DNA of 32,547 nucleotides, taken from contig NZ_JAFUSK010000057.1 in assembly GCF_017471675.1 (NCBI RefSeq), forward strand, positions 1-32,547. Reading direction: 5' to 3'. The DNA comes from Pseudobutyrivibrio sp. GTDB taxonomy: Bacteria; Bacillota; Clostridia; Lachnospirales; Lachnospiraceae. Below the pieces are notes generated by a model, which saw only the letters and a program-made list of their open reading frames with translations, was not told where the DNA came from and searched no databases. The stretch's first letter is position 1. Each line of letters opens with the position of its first letter. Below are positions 4,222 to 23,590 of this stretch, in pieces. The translations under genes were made by a program, and so were the position numbers.

Positions 4222-4581
4222 AATTAAAAGGGTTAGACTGTGAGCCGGGTTATGTCTTTTAAAGTAGTCATCTATCTAGGACCACTGTCGCCAGTGGCCT
4301 CAAGCGTTCAACCTAGCGCTGGCGGGCCGCGTACGCGCTGCTTAGAACTTGCTTCGGATGGGGTTTACATGGCTACCGTTGTTACCAACGGTACGGTGGT
4401 CTCTTACACCGCCTTTCCACCCTTACTCATATTGCTATGAGCGGTTTATCTCTGTTGCACTATCCTTGGAGTTACCTCCACCAGCCGTTAGCTGGCATCC
4501 TTGCCCTGTGAAGCCCGGACTTTCCTCTCCCCTACCATTACAGTAAGGCAGCGACTACTCATCTAGCCCCTTATTTAATTG
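4222..4581 (-). ncRNA. rnpB: RNase P RNA (bacterial type A)
   Basis: This is the catalytic RNA of RNase P, which matures tRNA 5' ends. On the minus strand the 5' P4 block GAGGAAAGTCCGGGCTTCAC is followed by ACAGGGC. The 3' P4 block ATAACCCGGCTCACAG lies near the end. These are the universally conserved RNase P signatures. The ends were set from P1 pairing: GGG-C-TAGA near 4562-4570 pairs with TCTA-A-CCC near 4231-4238, with an A/T-rich extension on both sides. Length is about 360 nt, normal for the class. It begins about 25 nt after the nucleoside kinase stop codon, so it may be processed from the upstream operon or use a promoter inside that gene. The ends are accurate to perhaps 10 nt. Confidence 0.93.
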
Positions 4582-11419: not shown

Positions 11420-11504
11420 TGCGGAAGATGGGACTTGAACCCACACGACTGCAATAGCCACAAGATCCTTAGTCTTGCTCGTCTGCCAGTTCCGACACTT
11501 CCGC
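11420..11504 (-). tRNA. tRNA-Leu, anticodon AAG
   Basis: The 85-nt minus-strand cloverleaf has acceptor GCGGAAG/CTTCCGC and discriminator A. The anticodon stem CAAGA/TCTTG has loop CTAAGGA, giving anticodon AAG (reads CUU and, if A34 becomes inosine, CUC and CUA). It has a class II variable arm and a T-arm with the normal TTCAAGT loop. CCA is not encoded. It is preceded by a strong promoter and followed by a hairpin. Confidence 0.96.
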
Positions 11505-16650: not shown

Positions 16651-16734
16651 TGCAGAAGATGGGACTTGTACCCACACGATATTGCTACCACAGGCACCTG
16701 AAGCCTGCGCGTCTGCCAATTCCGCCACTTCTGC
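16651..16734 (-). tRNA. tRNA-Leu, anticodon CAG, with unusual T-loop
   Basis: The 84-nt minus-strand cloverleaf has acceptor GCAGAAG/CTTCTGC and discriminator A. The anticodon stem CAGGC/GCCTG has loop TTCAGGT, giving anticodon CAG (reads CUG). It has a class II variable arm, and CCA is not encoded. The T-loop reads TACAAGT, so position 55, almost always U (pseudouridine), is A. The other tRNA-Leu in this window has TTCAAGT. All stems remain paired and a promoter is present, so it may still function. Confidence 0.9.
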
Positions 16735-19345: not shown

Positions 19346-19640
19346 TACTAGCTACAATTGAAAATCCATTATAGATAGTAGTGAAAAATCAATTAACTAC
19401 TATCTAACATCAAAAATAAGCTCTAGGTAGTATACTTTTTCAGCCCCATTACTATCTATAGTAATAAATACATCACAGATAGTAATCTCATACTAATTCA
19501 TTACTATCTATAGCTGACAATAATCCCTAGATAGTAGTTTACTCTAAAATCACTACTATCTACAACTCGAAATCTCACATAGATAGTAAATATATTCAGA
19601 TTCACTACTACCTGGTTAAAATAAATTATCCTAGGGGGTA
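19346..19640. repeat. Periodic array: 9-bp motif alternating in orientation every 26 bp
   Basis: Copies of TACTATCTA (a) and its reverse complement TAGATAGTA (b) alternate with exactly 26 nt from start to start. Positions are 19346 a (TACTAGCTA), 19372 b, 19398 a, 19424 b (TAGGTAGTA), 19450 a and 19476 b (CAGATAGTA). They continue at 19502 a, 19528 b, 19554 a, 19580 b, 19606 a (TACTACCTG) and a decayed 19632 b (TAGGGGGTA). The 17-nt spacers between copies share no obvious sequence. The array lies between the xylanase terminator and the cobI promoter. Pairs b-a (19372/19398, 19476/19502, 19528/19554) extend to 11-bp complementary arms. No protein frame or cas gene is associated. Confidence 0.95.
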
Positions 19641-19699: not shown

Positions 19700-19737
19700 A
19701 AAAATAGGGTTGGCATCAATATAGACGCCAACCCTAT
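19700..19737 (-). terminator. Rho-independent terminator of the xylanase gene
   Basis: Perfect 11-bp arms ATAGGGTTGGC (19704-19714) and GCCAACCCTAT (19727-19737) surround a 12-nt loop. In minus-strand RNA they are followed by TTTTTGATT. It lies 13 nt after the xylanase stop codon. Confidence 0.9.
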
Positions 19738-19750
19738 AAAATCAATTATT

Positions 19751-22700
19751 TTATTTAAGCTTGATAATTACAACTCTCTCGCCAAATAAAGGATCATTTC
19801 CCTTCATGTGAACAAGACCAAGACCTGTAAATCTCTCTCTAAATACTACTGTTGCCTCAAAATCCTTACCTGCCTCAAGAACGACTCTTGAACCCTTCTT
19901 AACACCAAAGTATTTAGCCTCTGAATTTGTCTTAACTGTATAGTTAGCCTTAAGGTTTACAGCACCTGTCTTCTTATTGTAAGAAGCTGAACGCCATACT
20001 TCTGCCTTGAGAACATGGATGCTAACGTTCTCTAGGATATCAAGCTCTACGCTTGTAGAACCAACAAAGTTCTTGCCCTTAGCTGTTACTACTGCATAGT
20101 ATGTACCATCTGCATTAGAAGCATGTGCTGGAAGCTTGTTAAGAAGCTTGCCATTCTCGCCAAGTCTATACTGTAGTGTATAGTTTGTCTTAGCAAGATT
20201 CTTGCCGTTGAAGCGTACTGTAACACCAGGACGAGTTGCAAAGATGCTTTCTACAAATGTGTCAACTGGCTCTACCTCAATTGCATCCTCGCTTGCAAAA
20301 TCTACAGGAGCGATTGTGAAGTTTGCCTTAACAGCTTCGTTGTCTGCATACTCCCCAATGAACTTAACCTCTACTGTAGGAAGTGAAGCATTGAATTCCT
20401 CACCCATACCGCTTCCTACCTTAGCAGCTGCATTCTTGTTGTTTGCGTAAGAAACTGTGTAATCAACATCCTTTACAAGCACCTTATCACCCGCTGTAAC
20501 AACTACCTCTGGAGTAACCTTAGCACCTGTGTAAACTGCATCAGCAACCTCTGCAACTGATGGAGTAACAACTACAGGCTCATCTGGAGTATCAGGAGTT
20601 TCCTCGCCATCAGAAAGTGTTACCTCACCAAATACCTTTGGTGCTGACCAGCCGTTACCTGTCTCATCATACCAGCTACGTGTTCCGATACGTGCACCGC
20701 CTTCGCCATCATTAATCTGTAAATCAAGACCAATAGCAGTTCCAACCTCTGGTGTGATATCTGTCCAAGCAAATGCAGCCTCTACCATATAGCCGTCATC
20801 TGTAAGCTTAACAGCATGCTTTACATTTTCCTCAACACACTTGGTACCATTGAAGCTTGTTTCATTTAAATAGTTAATTCTGTACTGCTTGTCATCGTCC
20901 TCGTATGCCTCAGACTTGTTATTGTTTTCATCAATAAATACTTCTACTGAATCTTTTTCATGAACAGCTGATGCTGTTGCATCAAGGTTAGCATCCTTTA
21001 CATTCATAAGAACATATAGGTTCTCATTATCCCAAAGGAGCTTAGCAGTAGCTGTTGCCTTAGGGCTGCTGCCTGGTACTGAAAGAACTACTTCCTTAGC
21101 AACTTCCCAAGCATCATCCACTTCACCATCAACTGTAACTGTGCCCTTGTTAACATTTGCATAAGGCTTGCATGTACCCTTTGCGTAGTACTTGCTGCCC
21201 TCATCCTGTGTAAGACGAAGGTTGTTGAATGCATGGTCACCCTCTGCATCTGTAACAACAACATCAAGTGCAATACGTGTTGCTGCTGAAAGTGTTGCAT
21301 CTGTTGCTACCTCAAGTACGCATTCACCATTCTTATCTAAAGTAGCCTCAGCTGTAGAAACCTTAGCTCCATCTTCCATTGTAGTTGCAAAATCAACATA
21401 AAGCTTAGCAGATGTTGCACCAGCAGCCTTAACCTTAACTGAGAGCTTACCATCCTCCCAAACAGGAACGAATGTATAATCTGTGCCCTCAATTGTTGCA
21501 GACTTGCCATGTACGAATTTATCTTCGCCTGTTGCTGCCTGAGTGATATTGATGCTCTTGATTGCTGGCTCAAGCTTAGATGGGTCAACTAACGCCCAGT
21601 AAGCTGGCTTAGCCATGTAATCACCATCAAATAGAAGTGGAACCTGCTTTCTGTTTCCGTTAGCACCGCCACCTGCACTGTTTGATGTCTGTAACCAAGA
21701 GTTAGGATCGATTACACCCCAAACTGTAAATCCATTTACATCGATGTCTGGATCTGCATCAATTTCCTTGTATGCTTCATAGATTTCCTTATAACGATAA
21801 GCTTCTCTTGTGTACTCAGCTGACTCTGTTGCTGATGTTCCATCATATTCATCTGAGCACTTGAAATCAAGCTCTGTTACCTGAATCTTTCCAACAATCT
21901 TACCATAGCGCTTACCGCAATCTATAACCTTCTGCTTACTTGGGCTTAACATATTATAATGTCCCTGCATACCAAAACCAGAGATTCTAGTAGGAAGAAC
22001 ATCATCACTCTCATGTCTCTTTACACTCTCAAGTAACTGAGCAATTGCATCTGGCTTGTTGCCTGAGCACTCGTTGTAATCGTTGTAGTAAAGCTCTACA
22101 TCATCCTTGCCCATCTTGTGAGCATAGTAGTTTGCATATCTAAATGCATTAAGGATGTAATCTGGAGCATCCTCCTTGCTGCCTGTTCCATAGATTCTAG
22201 CCCAGTTAGAACGCTCGCTTGCGCTGGCGCTTCTGTATGTACCTGTGCTATCTGAACAAGCCTCGTTTACAACATCCCAGCCGTAAAACATATCCTTGTA
22301 CTCAGAAGAGAATACATGCTCGAATACGCTCTTGATGTACCACTCATGACGAAGTGTCATTTCCTCTGGTGATACCCAGTCACCGTTTGGATCATAGTTC
22401 TCTTTGAAGAACCACTCAGGTGTCTGTGAATGCCATGTAAGAACGTGGCCTCTGATTTTGATTTCCTTATCAGGATGCTCGTCATTCCAATCCTTGATTA
22501 CGCGAAGCATTCTCTCTGGACGTGAGAAATCAAGCTTTGGTACAGCCATATCCTTATGTGTAACGCCCTTAGCATCTGTCCATGTTTCTGTGATAATCTG
22601 TCCATCTGCTGGCTTAGCGTTGTTGTAATTCATTAATGAATCTGGCTTGAACTCGTTACCAAATGTTACAGCATTAAAATGTTTCTCAACAATATCCATC

Positions 22701-23590
22701 AAAGCTTCATCAGTAATTTCTGAAACCATGATAGCAGCACCAGTATGGCTATCCTTGCCAAGACCCTTTTCGCTAGAGACATAATCTCTTAAATCAGGGA
22801 TATCCCACTGTATCTCAGGCTTTGTGTTGTCATCCTTTATCTCGCTTGGTGTTGGGTAATCAGCTGCGTCACCCTTGAGAGTAAGTGTAATGCTTTGTAT
22901 TGTAAATGTTGTTCCACCGCCTGAGCTATTCATTAAGCCGATTCCATCGAATTCAGCTTTGTCTGTATTTTCAATAACATCTGTTCCATAAGCTGCCTTT
23001 ACTTCCTCACCCTTGTTTCTGAACTTAAGTGAGAAACCTGACTTGCTGCCCTTTAACAGATTTGCTTTTACTGATACTACATCTGTGCCTTTAATTCCTT
23101 TAGGTAGACCAAAAACTTTCTCCGCATAGTTTCCGCTGTACTCAATTTTTACTCCACCCTTTGATTTTGTAACAGTTGAACCCCATGAACCGCCTTCATA
23201 ACTGTCATCAAAATCGAACATGCTATATGTGATTTCACATGTCTTTTTAGACTCTTCATCGTCCTTCTCTTCCTTTTCAGAGTCCTCTTCCTCTAAGGCT
23301 TCTTCAGTGTTCTCATCTGATTCCTCCTTAGAATCTTCCTTAACTTCTTCTTTTGATTCTTCTGCTTCTTTCTCAGAATCTTCTTTTACTTCTTCTTTAG
23401 AATTCTCTTTTGTTTCATCCTTAGATTCTTCCTTAGAGTCTTCCTTTAATTCTTCTACCACTTCCTCTGTGGTATCTTCTGGTAATTCTTTTGCATTGAC
23501 TAATGCTGGACTTGGTGTCGCCATCAACATGCTAGAAGCCATAGCTACAGATAGCGCCTTGTAGATTTTTCTTTTTACCATAACCCTCAA
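19751..23590 (-). CDS. Secreted multidomain GH10 xylanase with CBM9
   Basis: The protein has 1279 residues. The signal peptide spans about 1-33 (basic start, hydrophobic SVAMASSMLMA, cleavage near VNA-KE). A Lys/Glu/Ser/Asp low-complexity segment covers about 36-117. A CBM-like beta-sandwich follows at about 118-242. The GH10 catalytic domain is at about 262-670, with acid/base Glu443 in YGWDVVNEA and nucleophile Glu573 in IQVTELDF. Next come a linker sandwich (about 680-815) and CBM9 (about 820-1010: GEVDDAWEVAKEV, DSVEVFIDENN, VGTAIGLDLQIND). Ig-like surface modules continue to the end (DYTVSYANNKNAAAKVG). It cleaves beta-1,4-xylan outside the cell. No sortase motif is seen. AAGGAG best fits the TTG start at 23590. 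An ATG three codons later is the alternative. It is monocistronic. Confidence 0.95.
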   Translation of the reverse strand: MRVMVKRKIYKALSVAMASSMLMATPSPALVNAKELPEDTTEEVVEELKEDSKEESKDETKENSKEEVKEDSEKEAEESKEEVKEDSKEESDENTEEALEEEDSEKEEKDDEESKKTCEITYSMFDFDDSYEGGSWGSTVTKSKGGVKIEYSGNYAEKVFGLPKGIKGTDVVSVKANLLKGSKSGFSLKFRNKGEEVKAAYGTDVIENTDKAEFDGIGLMNSSGGGTTFTIQSITLTLKGDAADYPTPSEIKDDNTKPEIQWDIPDLRDYVSSEKGLGKDSHTGAAIMVSEITDEALMDIVEKHFNAVTFGNEFKPDSLMNYNNAKPADGQIITETWTDAKGVTHKDMAVPKLDFSRPERMLRVIKDWNDEHPDKEIKIRGHVLTWHSQTPEWFFKENYDPNGDWVSPEEMTLRHEWYIKSVFEHVFSSEYKDMFYGWDVVNEACSDSTGTYRSASASERSNWARIYGTGSKEDAPDYILNAFRYANYYAHKMGKDDVELYYNDYNECSGNKPDAIAQLLESVKRHESDDVLPTRISGFGMQGHYNMLSPSKQKVIDCGKRYGKIVGKIQVTELDFKCSDEYDGTSATESAEYTREAYRYKEIYEAYKEIDADPDIDVNGFTVWGVIDPNSWLQTSNSAGGGANGNRKQVPLLFDGDYMAKPAYWALVDPSKLEPAIKSINITQAATGEDKFVHGKSATIEGTDYTFVPVWEDGKLSVKVKAAGATSAKLYVDFATTMEDGAKVSTAEATLDKNGECVLEVATDATLSAATRIALDVVVTDAEGDHAFNNLRLTQDEGSKYYAKGTCKPYANVNKGTVTVDGEVDDAWEVAKEVVLSVPGSSPKATATAKLLWDNENLYVLMNVKDANLDATASAVHEKDSVEVFIDENNNKSEAYEDDDKQYRINYLNETSFNGTKCVEENVKHAVKLTDDGYMVEAAFAWTDITPEVGTAIGLDLQINDGEGGARIGTRSWYDETGNGWSAPKVFGEVTLSDGEETPDTPDEPVVVTPSVAEVADAVYTGAKVTPEVVVTAGDKVLVKDVDYTVSYANNKNAAAKVGSGMGEEFNASLPTVEVKFIGEYADNEAVKANFTIAPVDFASEDAIEVEPVDTFVESIFATRPGVTVRFNGKNLAKTNYTLQYRLGENGKLLNKLPAHASNADGTYYAVVTAKGKNFVGSTSVELDILENVSIHVLKAEVWRSASYNKKTGAVNLKANYTVKTNSEAKYFGVKKGSRVVLEAGKDFEATVVFRERFTGLGLVHMKGNDPLFGERVVIIKLK

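Follow-up and report, generated by a model that had tools for sequence, protein, structure and literature searches.

Helically phased arrays of inverted sites in Pseudobutyrivibrio and their linkage to genes for nuclease-like proteins

Our findings on an array of alternating inverted 9-bp motifs in the window, i.e. the whole stretch of 32,547 nucleotides from Pseudobutyrivibrio sp. that we analysed, suggest that the array is probably a platform of double-stranded DNA on which a cognate nuclease-like protein, encoded elsewhere in the same genome, docks. Beyond the single array, we envisage an undescribed modular system in Lachnospiraceae with several nuclease-like proteins per genome, each of which would recognise inverted sites in a helically phased array of its own. 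As landing strips with cooperative binding, the arrays would load the nuclease or hold it back and would spread through the genome like REPINs, with new specificities arising through N-terminal divergence and a code that assigns protein domains to words of 8-9 bp; to this wider proposal we give somewhat less than an even chance. If true, it would mean an unrecognised repeat system, made of a nuclease-like protein and a long phased DNA array, in a common rumen and gut bacterial family, and 57 nonredundant protein/motif pairs would allow the recognition code to be worked out directly. The question why dispersed intergenic repeats persist in bacterial genomes is touched on as well, since constraint on motif versus spacer is measurable here at orthologous copies. 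To our knowledge, no other known family fits a system of repeats plus nuclease-like protein. The literature we searched held no description of it, judged from titles and the starts of abstracts and hence as weak evidence, and with the motif itself as a search term no title among the matches listed was that of a related paper.

Layout and surroundings of the window array

Eleven clear copies of TACTAYCTR or its reverse complement YAGRTAGTA occupy positions 19346..19614 and alternate in orientation at exactly 26 bp from start to start (19346+, 19372-, 19398+, 19424-, 19450+, 19476-, 19502+, 19528-, 19554+, 19580-, 19606+); a typical dyad unit of 35 bp (19346..19380) reads TACTAGCTA-N17-TAGATAGTA. 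Of these copies, seven match exactly, three deviate at one position and the one at 19606 deviates at two. A decayed twelfth copy on the minus strand, TAGGGGGTA (19632..19640), has three changes and is genuine, as its counterparts in orthologous arrays (L064 and L095, for example) are somewhat better kept, with two changes. Homology between the window array and a copy at another locus (L037) stops about 10 bp beyond it. In the real window there is one chain of 11 copies, while alternating chains of four or more were absent from 50 base shuffles of the window (these shuffles and those used in the scans for chains near genes are plain base shuffles and not dinucleotide-preserving). The sequence-only reading, which had seen eleven in-phase alternating copies plus a decayed one, is borne out by this copy listing and by the shuffles. 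Genome-wide, the exact 18-base motif pair occurs seven times and its reversed-pattern control not at all. Single motifs with one mismatch are no rarer elsewhere in the window than chance predicts (13 seen, 11.8 expected), and what sets the array apart is the order and spacing of its motifs, not their frequency. Tandem Repeats Finder reported nothing that overlaps the array because only motif and spacing recur in it and the spacer does not.

On its left, the array is neighboured by a gene for a cobI-like tetrapyrrole methylase (PF00590; 18573..19268, minus strand) that starts about 77 bp away, and on its right by a gene for a GH10 xylanase-type protein with CBM9 (19751..23590, minus strand) whose 3' end faces the array. 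Between the array and this 3' end lies an inverted repeat, TAGGGTTGGC...GCCAACCCTA (19705..19736), which by eye is terminator-like; a comparable one, again by eye, is also present at the array-free sites L215 and L216. We considered a functional link between array and cobI and rejected it, since arrays elsewhere adjoin unrelated genes and two close relatives have the same junction without an array. Other features of the window, i.e. RNase P RNA (4225-4570) and two tRNA genes (11420-11504; 16651-16734), are ordinary.

Distribution and helical phasing

The window's genome (G000; 3.1 Mb in 92 contigs) has ten contigs that carry arrays of four or more copies, 11 arrays in all, with two on C7. Among 29 genomes of the genus, a pattern of three motifs with no more than 3 mismatches matched in 13 (one of these with a single match), and a two-motif pattern with one mismatch matched in 12 of 61 relatives, all 12 from the same genus. 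Across the GTDB collection (84,980 species), which may omit records very near the window's genome, all of the 47 exact matching stretches carry titles naming Pseudobutyrivibrio, a member of Lachnospiraceae; the exact three-motif pattern had no match in IMG/VR viral contigs. Arrays of TACTAYCT are found in 13 of the 29 genus genomes, as are (13/29) arrays of another motif, TTACCACT, and those of a third, TGTCACA, in 6/29, the reversed control giving single matches in four genomes.

The anatomy of TACTAYCTR arrays was drawn from 61 arrays with 682 copies. Steps from a plus to a minus copy measure 26 bp (268), 27 bp (60) or 28 bp (1), and those from minus to plus 26 bp (263), 15-16 bp (13), 25 bp (4), 23 bp (1) or 27 bp (1); another ten steps jump over a missing copy. 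The linkers of 15-16 bp are one helical turn shorter and most belong to P. xylanivorans copies, which are related, so they may derive from few events. Most arrays start with a plus copy and end with a minus copy, which makes the plus-minus dyad TACTAYCTR-N17-YAGRTAGTA the natural unit. Its spacer has an A/T-rich centre (AWWWT), and nearly every copy of the motif is preceded by a pyrimidine. Open reading frames, by our own calls, flank 47 of the 61 arrays on both sides within the sequence examined at each locus, 37 times in tandem, eight times convergently and twice divergently, and the neighbours (ten examined by scan, others by eye) have no function in common. One neighbour does recur, a protein of 263 aa without Pfam match, whose gene has an array on either side in three genomes (L031, L059, L067) and a single array next to it at four more loci (L068, L089, L090, L096).

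The spacing between copies of like orientation, described earlier as close to five helical turns for the window array alone, turned out to be a case of helical phasing. In 72 arrays of at least five copies upstream or downstream of genes for the nuclease-like family (see below), the distances between copies of the same orientation cluster at 49-54, 61-64 or 72-75 bp (535 of 544), classes that equal 5, 6 and 7 helical turns, and just two (58 and 66 bp) lie in the gaps between classes. Distances of 73, 52 and 63 bp occur together in one array that two relatives (L142, L156) have retained, and a later set of nine genes again gave 51-53, 63-64 and 74-75 bp. Turn length is not sharply fixed by the fit, values from 10.2 to 10.8 bp doing about equally well.

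Dispersal, empty sites and motif constraint

Arrays recur at many unrelated places, and the spacers of the window array are homologous to those of copies at other loci. The copy at L037 (contig C79, inverted) is 85% identical over 310 bp, the whole length of the array, with homology ending near the array edges, whereas two others (L084, L103) are 96% identical to each other and extend 27 and 66 bp past the array. With L071 and L080, the window array has 127 bp of flank in common on its cobI side. At the window junction itself, an array is present beside 4 of 24 cobI orthologs (at least 70% identity), and in G023 and G008 (97% and 96%), which are among the closest relatives, cobI is followed directly by the GH10 gene. 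In two further strains, the cobI/GH10 junction holds a segment of about 4 kb or about 14 kb between two array copies of the same orientation (L064:7549-7845 to L086:3623-3891; L093:3749-4017 to L058:2002-2270), which is partly masked and, going by a sequence motif, may contain a toxin-like cassette. At yet another locus (L082:1708-2006), a comEC-like gene, one array and an LprI-like gene follow each other without the nuclease-like gene, other strains having the order array-gene-array; possibly, the gene was lost here by recombination between the arrays.

In P. xylanivorans and P. ruminis CF1b, arrays lie inside MITE-like elements with terminal inverted repeats around AGAGGTTTAGTCTATGGCTAAACCTCT (by eye; L074, L075, L077, L081, L088, L094, L099 and L100, with L088 and L100 cut by contig ends). 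Many pairs of these elements are about 93-98% identical, so their dispersal looks recent. Read by eye, the window array shows no terminal inverted repeats, and no target duplication was established.

Orthologous arrays diverge unevenly. Over 15 orthologous array pairs, some of which have a sequence in common, the motif core (seven fixed positions) shows 17 changes in 1224 positions (1.4%) versus 411/2793 (14.7%) for spacers and 382/3253 for flanks; 11 of the 17 core changes come from one pair (L032/L104), and because the arrays were found by their motif, those that lost it are uncounted. The twelve pairs of dispersed arrays, which lie apart from the gene, behave alike (core 16/944, spacers 362/2154). 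So the earlier view of a DNA-binding array with constrained motif and spacing gains from a motif core about ten times less divergent than the spacers as well as from helical phasing, the binding itself being predicted from sequence. The associated idea that the filler between motifs drifts stands in part, in that the core is so much better kept, while the spacers are not wholly free. Tandem duplication, which had been discounted before, is at odds both with the silence of Tandem Repeats Finder and with the different divergence of core and spacer. Nor are whole units including spacers homogenised here, as they are in satellites, although other arrays (L034, L036) do show near-identical units.

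These data could also be read as selfish REPIN-like repeats, copied by means of the nuclease and without any role for the host, a scenario which to our minds is unlikely but deserves to be weighed. It would account for homology that ends near the array edges (L037), for the 96% identity of L084 and L103, for the empty window site in two close relatives and for the segments found between array copies of the same orientation at this junction in two strains. However, the retention of motifs in orthologous arrays whose spacers drift is needless for a purely selfish, fixed copy, and many P. xylanivorans copies ride in an element with terminal repeats of its own. The latter, together with the 127 bp of flank common to the window, L071 and L080, suggests that ordinary recombination or another mover may act; the protein might have a part in dispersal.

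Linkage to genes of a nuclease-like family

The recurrent 263-aa neighbour leads to a protein family, with the reference protein of the window's genome (G000:C7:39603-40391) being flanked by two 14-copy arrays. Among 94 distinct family genes, many of them related and thus not independent, 90 have at least 200 bp of upstream sequence, and 63 of these 90 show five or more alternating copies in the 450 bp upstream of the gene, as opposed to 8/93 downstream and 0/90 in shuffled controls. Seven of the genes also came from loci selected by their arrays, and without them upstream arrays are present in 56/83; 27 of the 90 genes have fewer than five upstream copies. Where present, arrays mostly lie 20-200 bp upstream of the start codon. 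A motif-blind scan for alternating inverted words detected chains at 38 of 64 loci, whereas 442 kb of base shuffles had none (some loci overlap, and at L134, L149 and L155 the chain is about 1 kb from the gene). In a wider family scan, chains appeared at 16 of 30 loci and not in 99 kb of shuffles; one of these loci (L175) is from the window's genome, and two chains (L178, L181), short and with odd spacing, may have arisen by chance. Nine previously unused genes gave a mixed result (at least five copies upstream in three, downstream in two more, neither in four), which indicates that linkage is frequent rather than universal. Presence of a close gene ortholog and of a TACTAYCT array likewise go together in the 29 genomes (9 genomes with both, 4 with the gene only, 3 with the array only, 13 with neither; P = 0.008). 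The four gene-only genomes lack matches to the three-motif pattern, yet in two of them (G003, G014) a variant array adjoins the gene. Eight family genes (L176, L182, L185, L188, L189, L193, L197, L202) begin no more than a few hundred bases from the start of their contig, as might be expected if short-read assemblies broke at upstream arrays.

Paralogs have different motifs, such as TTACCACT, GCATCC, TGTCACA, GACACG, CTACGTGG or TACGGTT, and these differences follow the variable N-terminal part of the adjacent protein. A Mantel test on 57 nonredundant genes related motif similarity to N-terminal identity with C-terminal identity held fixed (partial r 0.19, reached in 0/2000 permutations), and the reverse test on C-terminal identity with the N-terminus fixed did not (r -0.04, reached in 1514/2000). 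Consistently, 31 pairs with C-termini at least 65% identical and N-termini below 40% have motifs that are unrelated (median similarity 0.281 versus 0.285 overall), and 43 pairs with N-termini at least 55% identical have a median of 0.67. Shared descent may give orthologous arrays and genes like motifs and like sequences, but joint descent of gene and array does not suffice to account for the difference between the protein's two halves.

This difference is one reason why it is improbable that an unrelated regulator or nucleoid protein binds the arrays with the nuclease-like gene as merely one of its targets. Such a protein would fit the position of arrays shortly upstream of start codons as well as the upkeep of motifs in orthologous arrays, and there are precedents in long spaced palindromes such as the biotin and purine operators. 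BirA and B. subtilis PurR bind to one or few operators of this kind, with inverted half-sites of about 9 bp that are about 16-17 bp apart, and these regulators are not known to be nuclease-like. Here, however, the sites form long runs of phased copies with a nuclease-like partner, dispersed arrays flank functionally unrelated genes and, with motifs that differ between paralogs and track the N-terminus of the adjacent protein, a separate regulator per motif would be needed. Quite improbable, too, is a role as chromosome-organising, centromere-like sites for a domesticated and perhaps inactive nuclease. While each genome does have several long phased intergenic arrays with conserved motifs, their positions are not fixed between relatives and several motif systems coexist in one genome.

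Evidence from covariation and folding

If the two halves of a dyad were paired in RNA or in single-stranded DNA, covariation between them would be expected. We compared 329 plus-minus and 265 minus-plus pairs and saw no covariation in either set. At the T/C position, 218 of the 329 plus-minus pairs agree versus 214.4 (sd 4.5) expected from shuffling within arrays, i.e. no covariation, and at the last motif position there are 102 agreeing pairs, fewer than the 117.8 (sd 5.8) expected. In transcript sense, loci between tandem genes have more C-A mismatches (37) than U-G wobbles (21; P 0.048). The window array does fold better than its shuffles (z -7.5 and -5.5), but so must any chain of inverted repeats, and a chain of RNA hairpins, which the sequence-only reading had kept as an alternative, was rejected on the covariation and mismatch tests in spite of its folding energy. 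Transcription of the arrays with the nuclease as RNA elements, be it such a chain or a CRISPR/TIGR-like guide array, is therefore highly improbable: adjacency to a nuclease-like gene and good folding are outweighed by these two tests, by the lack of an Rfam match at the window array, by spacers that diverge between copies through point mutation and by periods that fit helical turns. CRISPR had been set aside from the outset, and rightly so, since CRISPR-Cas repeats are direct, in the same orientation and separated by unique acquired spacers, with cas genes alongside, whereas the motifs here alternate in orientation and their spacers are common to copies and diverge by point mutation.

Putative mechanism and relation to known systems

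The docking of a nuclease-like protein on double-stranded DNA, which we favour, may be pictured as follows. The variable N-terminal part (about 140 aa) would read the 8-9 bp motif, and each plus-minus dyad would take up two protein subunits. With successive dyads an integral number of helical turns apart, bound dimers would come to lie on one face of the DNA and might bind cooperatively, and the C-terminal PD-(D/E)XK-like domain would be the effector, putatively a nuclease. Expression of the gene, too, is probably regulated by the array that adjoins it, in which case the protein would control its own expression. Arrays may then be copied to intergenic sites through recombination or as passengers of MITE-like elements and be kept there as working sites.

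As far as the excerpts of the cited papers go, REPINs are defined as inverted REP doublets with a variable spacer (PMC8049555, PMC8266576), BIMEs are tandem elements of REP and inverted REP, and REPs themselves are imperfect palindromes with a GTAG tag (PMC8266576). Seen against these descriptions, our arrays resemble REPIN-RAYT systems, or REPtrons, in that a gene is flanked by paired repeats and repeats are dispersed in intergenic DNA; inverted doublets, several repeat lineages per genome and repeats in genomes without the gene are further features in common. They differ, again with respect to these excerpts, in that the partner here is PD-(D/E)XK-like, RAYT being a HUH/Y1 enzyme (TnpA_REP), in that the halves do not covary and no hairpin is kept, in the strict helical phasing of many copies and in a multicopy protein family with different motifs and up to 11 matches per genome. 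So, despite the association of gene and repeats and the intergenic dispersal, we do not file the arrays under REPIN-RAYT, as profile matches and covariation indicate neither a HUH (Y1) enzyme nor a hairpin that is kept. BIMEs, from what the same excerpts say of them, likewise have alternating orientation, an intergenic location and often consecutive tandem copies, while the sites described here are asymmetric words of 8-9 bp and it is the distance between them that is regular.

The nuclease-like protein family

Family members combine the variable N-terminal part of about 140 aa with a PD-(D/E)XK-like C-terminus. Matches occur in 28 of the 29 genus genomes and reach 11 in one genome, some being fragments. 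E160, P190-D191-F192, E206 and H207 are invariant among 33 sequences; the usual lysine position of PD-(D/E)XK is not occupied by one, with H207 following E206 and no lysine kept two residues after E206. Purifying selection acts on the protein (dN/dS 0.08-0.26 in 7/7 pairs tested). No Pfam family matches more than 3 of the 33 members at E values up to 1 (the best, 5e-4, is for one member), and among the Pfam families that match at this level there is no transposase. The C-terminal 105-130 aa, however, match the end of models for the PADLOC candidate PDC-S68 in 7/7 proteins (best E 1.5e-23 to 3.5e-28). PDC-S68 proteins are large and have a similar C-terminal domain, in contrast to the proteins of about 260 aa with variable N-terminal half and linked DNA array described here. 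PHROG resolvase/endonuclease families match the C-terminus at best with E 1.9e-5, one of the seven proteins having no match. An RSxxE..YE..PDF pattern is in common with T7 endonuclease I, yet at E 0.3 this is not significant, and neither is the match to any solved structure. For the N-terminal half, no profile match marks it as DNA-binding, and integrase-like matches are weak (PHROG 9e-4; Pfam Arm-DNA-bind 0.07 in 1/33 members).

Among 120 Lachnospiraceae genomes, one per genus, 43 match, by our count 34 with full-length proteins and nine with partial ones or with C-terminal parts of large proteins. Of 299 genomes across the phylum, 16 match, full-length in four, all Lachnospiraceae, and partially in the other 12. 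Five plasmid records (H4-H8) have C-terminal matches only, four of them under genes annotated as AAA family ATPase. A phage origin was considered and rejected, since the exact three-motif pattern has no match in viral contigs and nine IMG/VR relatives of the protein (L205-L213) match only within residues 141-263; in GenBank, three unannotated phage records match, one over 87% at 31% identity. Finally, in genomes outside the family Lachnospiraceae, two loci (L257, L258) weakly matched the N-terminal half alone (1e-4, 5e-4) in frames of about 110 aa with an internal stop; by sequence, these are possible stand-alone N-terminal domains or else chance matches.
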